Shown: piece after piece, positions 27,603 through 37,512 of the stretch
Numbering within the stretch: the first letter of the stretch is position 1
Layout: each line of letters starts with the position of its first letter
NCBI GenBank assembly: GCA_024709365.1
Contig: JANJWV010000168.1
Coordinates: 1-51,392, forward strand
Length of the DNA stretch: 51,392 nucleotides
Origin: Desulfomicrobium sp.
GTDB lineage: Bacteria > Desulfobacterota > Desulfovibrionia > Desulfovibrionales > Desulfomicrobiaceae
Reading direction: 5' to 3'
Made by a program: the position numbers and the translations under genes
Notes under the pieces: generated by a model
The model's database searches: none
What the model was told of the DNA's origin: nothing
Seen by the model: the letters and a program-made list of their open reading frames with translations, nothing else

Positions 27603-27679
27603 TGGGGTGAGTGACGCGGCTTGAACGCGCGACATCCTGGGCCACAACCAGGTGCTCTGCCTGCTGAGCTACACCCACC
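27603..27679 (-). tRNA. tRNA-His (GTG), with encoded G-1 and CCA
   Basis: GGTGGGTGTAGCTCAGCAGGCAGAGCACCTGGTTGTGGCCCAGGATGTCGCGCGTTCAAGCCGCGTCACTCACCCCA; anticodon stem CCTGG-TTGTGGC-CCAGG. Confidence 0.95.
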
Positions 27680-27724: not shown

Positions 27725-27801
27725 TGGGGTGAGTGACGCGGCTTGAACGCGCGACATCCTGGGCCACAACCAGGTGCTCTGCCTACTGAGCTACACCCAC
27801 C
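27725..27801 (-). tRNA. tRNA-His (GTG), second copy
   Basis: Identical to the 27603-27679 copy except one D-loop base (C to T on the tRNA strand). Confidence 0.95.
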
Positions 27802-33960: not shown

Positions 33961-36255
33961 GTGCCAGGCAAGCTGGAGACATTCCGCACAGAGTGGGCGA
34001 CCTTCGCGGTCTGCGCCTGCATTCTGGCGGCCGTCCTGATCTACGAGAATCAGCGCGAATACGGCGCCATCAAGACACGGGAGCAGGAGCGGCTGACCGC
34101 CGTGGCCTCGGTCAGCGAGTACATGATCGTCACCCAGCTCGAGAAGATCGGCGCCACCCTCGGCAACCTCCGGGACACTTTTTCCCCTCCCGCGCTCATG
34201 CAGGGCCTCCATGACCGTTCTTCGGCGCTTTCGACCGCAGCCAGGCTCAAGATTCTGGCCACCGCCATGACCAGCGTCCGATCCCTGGACATCATCGACG
34301 CATCGGGGACGATTCTCGCGTCCAATTTCGATGAGCATGTGGGCCAAAACGCGGCGGGGCAGGAATGCTTCACGACTGCCCACGACCGGCCGGCCGACGA
34401 TATCCTCTACATCAGCAGCCCCTTCAACAGCACCTTCGGCGACCTGACCGTCAACATGACCAAATGCCTTATCGCCCCGGACGGCTCCTTCGCCGGCCTG
34501 GTCACGGCCTCCATCGACCCGAAGTTCTTCCGGGCCATCATGACCGCGGTGCTGTACGCGCCCAATTCATGGGCCAGGCTGGTCCACGGCTCGGGCACGG
34601 TCCTTCTCTGGGTGCCCGAATGGCAGGGCCTCGTCGGCAGGAATCTGGCCATCCCGGGCACATTCTTCACGCGTCACATCGAGAGCGGGCTCCCCTCCGC
34701 CCTGTTCGAGGGAAAAAGCTATGCGGCGAACGAGGAATCCCTGCTCATCCTGCAGACGGTGCAATCGCCGAACCTGAAGCTGAGCCCGCCGCTTATCCTC
34801 GGCGTCGGCCGGGACACGCGCGCCATCTTCCAGTATTGGCACCACAACGTTCGCGTCTCCATCGCCATCTTCTGCCTCGTCTTCCTGGCCGGGGCCACCG
34901 CCCTCACCGGTTCGCAGCGCTGGCGCCGCAAGACGCGGCTCCATTCCGAGCGCATGGGGTATGAGCTGCGGTCGGTCCGGACGGAACTCGAAAGCTTCTT
35001 TTCCATCTCGCCGAACCTCCTCGGCATAGCCGACCTCCATGGTGTCTGCCAGAAACTCAACCCTGCCTGGGAAAAGGCCATGGGGTACGCGGCCGGGGAA
35101 CTTGAAGGGCGTCAATGCACCGAGCTCTTCCACCCCGACGACAGGCAAGCGGCTTCCGATGCCCTGGCCGACATCGCCTCAGGCAAGACCCTTTCCGACT
35201 TCGTGGCCAGGTTCCGGCACAGGGACGGGTCCTACCGTTATCTCGAATGGTCCGCGGCAGGCCACGACGGCCTGATCTACGCCGCGGCCCACGACATCAC
35301 CGCTCGCAGGGAGACCGAGCGGCATCTGCACGAGCTGGCCTACCATGACCGCCTGACGGGGCTCCCCAACAGGACCCTCTTCTTCGACCGCCTGTCCCAG
35401 TCCCTGTCCGGCGCCAAGCGCAGCCAGAAGCGTCTGGGCATCCTCTTCATTGACCTGGACGGCTTCAAGAAGATCAACGACGAGCACGGACACGACGCGG
35501 GCGACACGGTCCTGAGGACCGTCGCCGAAAGGCTCGTGGAAACCGTGCGGGCCACCGACACCGTCGCCAGGATGGGCGGCGACGAGTTCGTGATCATCCT
35601 CCACGAACTCGAAGGCCGGGACGGAGCCGTTCTCGTGACGCGGAAGATCCTGGCCGCGGTGACCCCGGAGATCCCCCTGTCCGACGCCCTGGCGTGCTCC
35701 GTGGGGGCCAGCATAGGCATCAGCATCTACCCCGAGCACGGCGCCGACATGGACAGCCTGCTCATGGCCGCGGACATGGCCATGTACCTGAGCAAGAAGA
35801 AAGGCCGGAACGGCTTCGCCTTCGCCGGGGAGGACCGGCAGCCCGAAACCGGGGTCGGGCTGGGCGAAACCCATGTCGTGGGCGTGGCGGAGATCGACGA
35901 GCAGCACACGGAGATGTTCGCGCTGGCCAACAGATTGTGCGCGACCCTGCAGGACGGGGACGATCTGGTGGGCGGGAGCCTTTTCAAGGTGATGCTGGCG
36001 TACACCGAGTACCATTTCGCCACCGAACTCAGGCTCATGCTCCAGCACGGCTACCCGAACCGCAAGGCGCATGACGCGGAACACGAACGACTGGTGCTGG
36101 AACTGCGCCGCTTCGGCCCGGAAATGGGCGACAGGGATGTCCAGTTTCTGCGCGACTTTTTCAGGACATGGCTCCTGGAACACATCCTGGAGCACGACAA
36201 GGCACTCGGCGCGTTCCTGCGCGGACTGCAGAAACCGGCCGAGGCCGGGGCCTGA
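33961..36255 (+). CDS. sensor diguanylate cyclase (periplasmic sensor, PAS, GGDEF) fused to a C-terminal bacteriohemerythrin
   Basis: RMGGDEFVIILHEL; hemerythrin ligands IDEQHTEMF, YHFATELRL, HDAEHERL, HILEHDKAL. GTG start. Confidence 0.92.
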   Translation: MPGKLETFRTEWATFAVCACILAAVLIYENQREYGAIKTREQERLTAVASVSEYMIVTQLEKIGATLGNLRDTFSPPALMQGLHDRSSALSTAARLKILATAMTSVRSLDIIDASGTILASNFDEHVGQNAAGQECFTTAHDRPADDILYISSPFNSTFGDLTVNMTKCLIAPDGSFAGLVTASIDPKFFRAIMTAVLYAPNSWARLVHGSGTVLLWVPEWQGLVGRNLAIPGTFFTRHIESGLPSALFEGKSYAANEESLLILQTVQSPNLKLSPPLILGVGRDTRAIFQYWHHNVRVSIAIFCLVFLAGATALTGSQRWRRKTRLHSERMGYELRSVRTELESFFSISPNLLGIADLHGVCQKLNPAWEKAMGYAAGELEGRQCTELFHPDDRQAASDALADIASGKTLSDFVARFRHRDGSYRYLEWSAAGHDGLIYAAAHDITARRETERHLHELAYHDRLTGLPNRTLFFDRLSQSLSGAKRSQKRLGILFIDLDGFKKINDEHGHDAGDTVLRTVAERLVETVRATDTVARMGGDEFVIILHELEGRDGAVLVTRKILAAVTPEIPLSDALACSVGASIGISIYPEHGADMDSLLMAADMAMYLSKKKGRNGFAFAGEDRQPETGVGLGETHVVGVAEIDEQHTEMFALANRLCATLQDGDDLVGGSLFKVMLAYTEYHFATELRLMLQHGYPNRKAHDAEHERLVLELRRFGPEMGDRDVQFLRDFFRTWLLEHILEHDKALGAFLRGLQKPAEAGA

Positions 36256-36292: not shown

Positions 36293-36321
36293 TTGACGGG
36301 ACCGTCCTTCATGGATAGATT
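36293..36321 (+). promoter_or_regulatory. sigma-70-like promoter upstream of the riboswitch
   Basis: TTGACG-17 nt-TAGATT. Confidence 0.65.
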
Positions 36322-36330
36322 TCACTCTTT

Positions 36331-36466
36331 ACGACGAAGGGGAGTAGCTCCTCCAGGCCCGGTCAACATCACTGGCGCGCACGCGCTTGGCCCGGCCGTC
36401 GGCGACCCGCCGATGAGCAAGACCTTCAGCATCGCACATGCTGGAGGTTTTTTTGCGCCTCCAGCA
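36331..36466 (+). ncRNA. yybP-ykoY (manganese) riboswitch with expression platform
   Basis: Conserved blocks GAAGGGGAGTAGC, GGTCAACATCACTGG and GAGCAAGACCTTC upstream of a TerC-family gene; followed by a 10-bp hairpin and T7. Confidence 0.88.
36423..36454 (+). terminator. riboswitch terminator hairpin
   Basis: CCTTCAGCAT-CGCAC-ATGCTGGAGG-TTTTTTT (one G-U pair). Confidence 0.85.
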
Positions 36467-36489
36467 CATTCTCAACCACTGGAGGTTTC

Positions 36490-37512
36490 ATGAACACGCT
36501 TCTGCTCTGGGTCGTCTTCCACGTCTTCATCATCGCCCTGCTGGCCTTCGATCTCGGCGTTGTCCAACGCAGGGACCGGGAGATGAGCGTCCGCACGGCG
36601 CTGTGGCTCAGTCTCGGGTACATCGTCCTGGCCCTGGCCTTCGGCGCTGGGGTCTTCCACTTCAAGGGCATTGATGCCGGCTACGAGTTCCTGACGGGCT
36701 ACTTCATCGAGAAAAGCCTGAGCGTCGACAACATCTTCGTCTTCCTGCTCATCTTCCTGCACTTCTCCGTGCCCCGCCACGCCCAGCGCAAGGTCCTCGT
36801 CTACGGCGTCATCGGCGCCCTGGTCATGCGCGCCGTGCTCATCTTCGCCGGTGCCGCGGCCATAGCCTCCTTCCACTGGCTGCTCTACGTCTTCGGGCTC
36901 TTCCTCGTCGCCTCGGGCGTCAAGATGCTCGTCGCCATCAACCAGGAACCCGACATGTCCCGCAACCGCATCGTGCGCTTCATGCGCAGCCGCTTCCGCG
37001 TCACGGACGAGTACGAGGGCGAGAAGTTCTGGGTCCGCCGGGACGGCCTGTGGTACATGACGCCCATGTTCATCGTCCTGGTCATCGTCGAGACGTCCGA
37101 CGTCATCTTCGCCCTGGACTCCATCCCGGCCATCCTGGCCGTCAGCAACGACACCTTCATCGTCTACTCGTCCAACGTCTTCGCCATCCTTGGGCTGCAC
37201 GCGCTGTTCTTCGCCCTGTCGGACATCGTGCACCGCTTCCACTACCTGAAGTACGGCCTGTCCCTGGTCCTGATCCTGGTGGGTGCCAAGATGCTCCTCA
37301 ACACCTGGTTCGGGACCAAGGTCGTCTCCACGGAGATGGCCCTGGCCATGACGGCGGCGCTGATCGGCGCGTCCATGCTCTATTCCGTCTACCGCACCAG
37401 GCGGCCCTCGACCGAGGAAGCCCGCAAGGCCGTGCGCTGGTGGATACCCGGCACCCCGGCCAAGGAGACGGCCGCTTCCGACGCGGCGGTGAAGGCGGAC
37501 GACGCGAACTGA
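36490..37512 (+). CDS. TerC/Alx family membrane protein
   Basis: FDLGVVQRRDREMSVRTALWLS, EFLTGYFIEKSLSVDNIFVFLLIF, VIVETSDVIFALDSIPAILAVS. Confidence 0.94.
   Translation: MNTLLLWVVFHVFIIALLAFDLGVVQRRDREMSVRTALWLSLGYIVLALAFGAGVFHFKGIDAGYEFLTGYFIEKSLSVDNIFVFLLIFLHFSVPRHAQRKVLVYGVIGALVMRAVLIFAGAAAIASFHWLLYVFGLFLVASGVKMLVAINQEPDMSRNRIVRFMRSRFRVTDEYEGEKFWVRRDGLWYMTPMFIVLVIVETSDVIFALDSIPAILAVSNDTFIVYSSNVFAILGLHALFFALSDIVHRFHYLKYGLSLVLILVGAKMLLNTWFGTKVVSTEMALAMTAALIGASMLYSVYRTRRPSTEEARKAVRWWIPGTPAKETAASDAAVKADDAN

Follow-up and report, generated by a model that had tools for sequence, protein, structure and literature searches.

How can a single metal-sensing RNA set both the transcription and the translation of the gene behind it? 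This question is raised by the leader of terC, which encodes an Alx-type TerC protein, on contig JANJWV010000168.1 of Desulfomicrobium sp. (assembly GCA_024709365.1). The stretch analysed comprises 51,392 nucleotides (positions 1 to 51,392 of the forward strand; hereafter the window) and is contig 18 of G000, a Desulfomicrobium-type genome; near relatives are found on DPKT01000351 and CALMTS010000008. The original prediction, made from the sequence alone, proposed that an aptamer of the yybP-ykoY type is followed by four elements, A to D, which pair in mutually exclusive ways and the last of which is the Shine-Dalgarno (SD) region of terC. All of these sequences, including both strands of the aptamer helix P1, are found where they had been placed, and the helices are longer than claimed (13 bp for A:B, 10 bp for B:C and 8 bp for C:D). 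The leader is likely to be a riboswitch that is activated by Mn2+ and holds terC under two coupled locks. Sequence comparison supports the aptamer and the conserved, mutually exclusive elements, and the two alternative folds are computed; as regards Mn2+ dependence, efficiency of termination and effects on translation in vivo, we infer the behaviour outlined below.

Two proposed locks linked by one RNA segment

At low Mn2+ concentrations, the terminator arm B would invade helix P1, A:B would form and RNA polymerase would halt at the following tract of seven T residues (T7). In transcripts that leak through, A:B would keep B occupied, so that C would pair with the SD of terC, element D, and block translation. 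Upon binding of Mn2+, P1 would be held, the CCUUC segment of A would be unavailable to B and the polymerase would read through; the freed B would then capture C, thereby exposing D. A contest between P1 and the terminator is the accepted logic of this riboswitch family (PMC11087558). The original prediction had regarded B:C as the antiterminator; this cannot be the case, because C is transcribed only after the U-tract. The antiterminator is helix P1, a role that has been established experimentally for the riboswitches of Lactococcus lactis and Xanthomonas oryzae (PMC11087558, PMC6754395), and B:C would be an anti-sequestor, effective only in read-through RNA.

Element A of the window shares CCUUC with P1, and A:B together with T7 forms an intrinsic terminator in competition with the switch helix of the aptamer, as had been proposed. 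A simple terminator scan of the window did not list A:B, probably since its stem runs into the U-tract. For the window alone, shuffling of the spacer made C match both B and D in 0.15% of mononucleotide and 0.43% of dinucleotide shuffles.

The computed folds agree with the proposed ON logic. In the free RNA ensembles of seven distinct terC-type Desulfomicrobium leaders, A:B (0.92-1.00) and C:D (0.91-0.99) prevail and the SD is hardly ever unpaired (0.00-0.01), which is the closed state expected for the ligand-free leader; with P1 forced, the same leaders form B:C (0.76-0.99) and the unpaired fraction of the SD reaches 0.25-0.50. A wider run, which covered all classes under a slightly different constraint, gave an increase from 0.00 to 0.23-0.52 for the terC type. 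When the window leader was folded as a growing chain, P1 was the best fold up to the completion of B; from then on A:B was ahead by approximately 12 kcal/mol, except where P1 was held. B:C came up once C had been added, and the combination of A:B and C:D took the lead as soon as D was present. The coupling between the aptamer and the SD appears supported by these models for the window and the terC class.

Conservation of the platform

A family-wide search with a covariance model of our own, R1, retrieved 28 copies of the riboswitch in 12 Desulfomicrobium genomes, four of them in the genome of the window. Subtraction of five copies located before htpX-like genes and of L118 (80.3 bits), which the platform script did not parse, leaves 22 analysed copies, and A:B, B:C and C:D are all retained in 21 of these, with B carrying GCTGGAGG. 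The complementarity between C and D, whose absence from close relatives would have spoken against the original prediction, was looked for and is present; the same holds for its exclusivity with B:C and for the terminator that shares CCUUC with P1. Some loci are near-identical across species, so that the 21 platforms do not represent 21 independent events. Across these platforms and L030, a locus from another genus, the helices measure 13-17 bp (A:B), 8-14 bp (B:C) and 5-12 bp (C:D), L030 itself having 17, 13 and 12 bp, and the A-B-C-D layout is repeated with an imperfect B:C in L078 and L079, these three loci coming from two other genera. Both pairings of C arose in 0 of 300 shuffles at each of the 21 Desulfomicrobium loci and at L030. 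It is the elements rather than the whole stretch that are conserved, because spacers and loops differ between the classes. A loose pattern (AGACCTT..GGAGG..CCTCC) was also tried across the phylum and matched 213 of 395 genomes; its reversed control matches freely too, and these hits were dismissed as chance.

The strongest sign of selection in the platform lies in B. The aptamer dictates the CCUUC of A, and the best partner that B could offer it would be GAAGG; B nevertheless reads GGAGG, so that all 21 distinct platforms have a U.G wobble between A and B. L124 (G007 contig 1), the one exception among the 22 analysed copies, possesses a Watson-Crick GAAGG (GCTGAAGG), lacks C, has its SD far downstream and is left with a terminator only; with respect to the proposed double lock, it is a natural control. 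In the related genus g21, CaCA-type genes are preceded by platforms that consist of a terminator only and carry AAGG or GAGG at the position of B. The invariant wobble, the GAAGG of L124 and the AAGG or GAGG of g21 together suggest that B is an SD copy, retained so that C recognises both B and D. In the terC class, C furthermore reaches further toward B (10-11 bp) than toward D (7-8 bp). A perfect and invariant GGAGG might also be expected if GCTGGAGG in B did not pair but served ribosomes as a standby or decoy site. This idea is scarcely credible: no start codon lies at a distance from B that could be used, nearly all predicted folds bury B in A:B or B:C, and the GCU flanking its GGAGG matches C as well.

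The terminator itself bears on the possibility that the switch is mainly translational, with A:B acting as an anti-anti-sequestor and the effect on transcription being Rho-dependent and secondary. Such a design is known from E. coli mntP, where Rho-dependent termination is superimposed on translational control (PMC11647493). It is improbable here, as A:B is a hairpin of 13-17 bp with six to ten T residues directly 3' in nearly all relatives, and the platforms of g21 and of the htpX class retain the terminator but not the SD pairing.

Several observations weigh against two coupled locks. The predicted exposure of the SD is only partial, about half open, and the fold energies ignore Mg2+, Mn2+ and tertiary contacts. 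Forcing P1 leaves the SD closed in the models of six of the 21 platforms (L119, L113, L121, L127, L128 and L120) and of L030, since B is taken up by a residual AGCAUG/CAUGCU hairpin and C stays with D; at these loci the folds do not support the coupling. Covariation is found at two pairs of A:B changed on both sides, and B:C likewise has two such pairs, but 43 of 500 shuffles are as good, which is not significant alone. For C:D, covariation is modest: three pairs vary on both strands, and the covariation score is reached by 5 of 500 shuffles. The reason is the invariant GGAGG/CCUCC core of C:D; platform cores hardly vary. Finally, the htpX class keeps B:C without an SD-like repeat, so that B:C may have a further role.

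Part of this evidence would also fit a riboswitch that acts on transcription only, in which A:B and P1 compete, C:D is unregulated and merely sets a low basal level of translation, and B and D resemble each other just because both are purine-rich. The well-studied riboswitches of L. lactis and X. oryzae operate in this way (PMC11087558, PMC6754395), g21 has platforms of this kind, and C:D persists in the six platforms mentioned above. We nevertheless regard a transcription-only switch as rather unlikely, since it explains neither why the wobble is kept in every distinct platform, with GAAGG occurring only in a copy without C, nor why C of the terC class extends further toward B than toward D.

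Taken together, the platform is conserved and probably double-locked. On balance, the evidence leans towards the broader proposal that the Mn2+ riboswitches of terC, Tim44-like and Na/Ca exchanger genes, which are paralogous in Desulfomicrobium, share a double lock whose terminator arm copies the SD at the cost of a wobble; C would relay the state of the terminator to translation and silence leaked transcripts, and at some loci the SD would drive a short leader open reading frame (ORF) coupled to the transporter gene via ATGA. The sensor is known; the tandem SD-mimic platform is new within the open-access literature searched and recurs across the genus. If the proposal is true, this would be a natural fail-safe, in which one metal-sensing event sets transcription and translation via a shared RNA segment, and the double lock would keep leak through the terminator low at a gene for a membrane transporter. 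Within a single genus, some copies possess element C and others lack it, which offers a clean comparative system for the effect of the second lock on leak.

Further riboswitches of the genus

The genome of the window contains three further Mn-type riboswitches, two at L107 (G000 contig 93, 5348-5440 on the plus strand and 2708-2616 on the minus strand) and one at L133 (G000 contig 51, 4332-4446, minus strand). They precede, in this order, a Na/Ca-exchanger-type, a Tim44-like and an htpX-like gene, and the first two carry A-B-C-D. At L107 (5503-5637) and likewise downstream of the riboswitches L108, L110, L119 and L113, the controlled SD serves a leader ORF of 43-67 codons, whose stop codon overlaps the start of the transporter gene (ATGA); this arrangement suggests translational coupling. 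Short ORFs without the ATGA overlap are present at L109 and L111. At L116/L026 (G004 contig 52), a riboswitch, a Tim44-like gene and terC lie in one apparent operon, which links two gene classes, each with a riboswitch of its own at other loci. The htpX-class copies L126, L130, L131, L132 and L133 maintain B:C complementarity through other sequences (GGGUAAAG/CUUUACCC and CCGCGGAUAA/UUAUCCGCGG) and have no SD-like repeat.

The Mn2+ aptamer

The aptamer of the window is almost certainly a member of the yybP-ykoY (Mn2+) family, judging from its sequence, and the original prediction of such an aptamer 5' of a TerC/Alx gene stands. The L1, L3 and 3' hallmarks of RF00080 are present (GGGGAGUAGC, GUCAACAU and GCAAGACC), and GGGGAGTA of the L1 hallmark is retained in the copies read from the model matches. 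A36368 lies in an ACA-U context and matches A48, the Mn2+-sensing adenosine described for X. oryzae (PMC6754395), whose counterpart in L. lactis is A41; this adenosine is retained in 30 of 30 copies read. In the window and 19 relatives, P1, P2 and P4 covary, with 99.2% of the cells paired and both partners altered at seven pairs; no shuffle out of 500 did as well, and slid controls scored far lower. P3 was omitted from R1, as the MAFFT columns there were misaligned between genera. R1 was built from 20 relatives of this lineage only, the E. coli members being outside its training, and it matches the E. coli leaders of mntP (21.9 bits, E 0.0015) and alx (21.5 bits, E 0.002), which argues for homology.

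The original prediction had named a covariance search with the yybP-ykoY model as a check, with a score below the threshold speaking against it. Rfam model RF00080 scores the window aptamer at 14.6 bits, below its gathering cut-off of 45 bits, and gives no match in the window at that threshold. This score is uninformative, however, because the proven members of E. coli K-12 also lie below the cut-off (Rfam release 15; L075 mntP 41.6 bits, L076 alx unlisted). The scores of the window and its relatives form a graded series from 14.6 to 70.3 bits. Most of the relatives escaped strict filters and were gathered by hallmark patterns and R1 instead. The current Rfam cut-off thus misses the whole lineage and both E. 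coli reference members, and genome annotation with RF00080 will therefore miss many real ones. Matches to mir-460 and a snoRNA at the window leader were discarded as sub-threshold noise.

The gene behind the aptamer points to Mn homeostasis as well: its product scores 167.5 bits with Pfam TerC and 380.5 bits with NCBIfam TIGR03718 (R_switched_Alx; cut-off 246.4) and is 48% identical to E. coli Alx, whose gene itself sits behind a Mn riboswitch (PMC9603457). That the RNA senses Mg2+, Ni2+/Co2+ or Fe2+ instead is very unlikely; the downstream genes of the family do include CaCA-type exchangers and a Tim44-like gene, but the sensing adenosine and the L1/L3 hallmarks match the Mn2+ aptamer, the gene is of the Alx/TerC type and the Rfam scan of the window gave no match to any other metal riboswitch family.

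A TTGACG or TTGACA box lies at equal distance 5' of nearly all related aptamers, in which the -10 element ends about 10-19 nucleotides (nt) 5' of GGGGAGUAG. We infer that transcription starts a few nt 5' of P1. The features of the leader are compiled in Table 1.

Table 1. Features of the terC leader in the window (MFE, minimum free energy)
Feature	Positions	Strand	Basis or remark
Promoter	36293..36321	+	TTGACG 36293-36298, 17 nt spacer, TAGATT 36316-36321; sole sigma-70-type match in the region
Mn2+ (yybP-ykoY) aptamer	36334..36427	+	95.4 bits with R1; covarying stems
P1 5' strand GAAGG (switch helix)	36336..36340	+	Pairs with CCTTC 36423-36427; 100% paired; outermost pair G-C to A-U across relatives
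L1 hallmark GGGGAGTAGC	36339..36348	+	Invariant in alignment A1 (part of the search pattern)
P2 with P3 hairpin	36356..36397	+	P2 36356-36365/36388-36397, P3 36374-36387; MFE fold; four P2 pairs changed on both sides
L3 hallmark GTCAACAT	36362..36369	+	A36368 corresponds to the Mn2+-sensing adenosine
P4 hairpin	36398..36414	+	MFE fold; two pairs changed on both sides
3' hallmark GCAAGACC	36417..36424	+	Direct sequence check; alignment A1
Element A, terminator 5' arm	36420..36432	+	CCTTC common to P1; includes CCTTCAGCAT 36423-36432
Element B, terminator 3' arm	36438..36450	+	SD-like GCTGGAGG; CTGGAGG at 36441-36447
T7 tract of intrinsic terminator	36448..36454	+	6-10 consecutive T in almost every relative
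Element C (GCCTCCAGCA)	36457..36466	+	CCTCCAG at 36458-36464; pairs with B or D
Element D (CTGGAGGT), terC SD	36479..36486	+	CTGGAGG at 36479-36485
A:B helix, 13 bp	36420-36432/36438-36450	+	
B:C helix, 10 bp	36439-36448/36457-36466	+	
C:D helix, 8 bp	36457-36464/36479-36486	+	
terC, Alx-type TerC protein, 340 aa	36490..37512	+	ATG at 36490

Comparison with known systems

In its topology, A:B plus C:D versus B:C, the window leader resembles four-segment translational attenuators such as ermC, in which 1:2 and 3:4 alternate with 2:3 and the SD lies in the fourth segment; in the window, however, the driver is a metal aptamer instead of a stalled ribosome, and the 1:2 helix is also a terminator. 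The original prediction regarded the repeated CTGGAGG, which couples the two levels, as unusual. The form is indeed different, but dual transcription/translation attenuation platforms as such were catalogued by Barrick and Breaker in 2007 (PMC2258182). These likewise combine a terminator with SD occlusion in one leader; by definition, their terminator hairpin either contains the SD or has a start codon no more than 10 nt away. The window leader would act in a similar manner but does not fit this definition: its start codon lies 39 nt past the terminator stem, and the SD belongs to a second hairpin, C:D, which is tied to the terminator through the common partner C.

Among Mn2+ riboswitches, L. 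lactis yoaB and that of X. oryzae agree with the window in the aptamer, the sensing adenosine and the ON logic, and the 3' strand of their P1.1 is shared with an intrinsic terminator; the accessible parts of the reports describe no second, SD-sequestering hairpin linked to the terminator (PMC11087558, PMC6754395). The Mn exporter gene mntP of E. coli is likewise controlled at two levels, and low Mn2+ leads to a closed SD and fewer full-length RNAs, but the transcriptional level depends on Rho and lost coupling and not on an intrinsic terminator arm that controls the SD (PMC11647493). The leader of E. coli alx, encoding the Mn2+ exporter Alx, precedes a gene of the same protein family and is matched by R1; read directly, it shows no B/D repeat and has a separate hairpin with T7 just 5' of the SD. 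Engineered dual-control RNA repressors also unite termination with SD masking, although they are synthetic, driven by antisense RNA and consist of a single hairpin; they reduce leak, repression rising from 85% to 98%, and thereby offer a rationale for such an arrangement (PMC5435934).

Neighbouring genes

The gene 5' of terC (33961-36255) encodes PAS, GGDEF and hemerythrin domains in a single protein. Two near-identical tandem tRNA genes with the anticodon loop UUGUGGC (GUG, histidine) are located on the minus strand of the window at 27606-27678 and 27728-27800.
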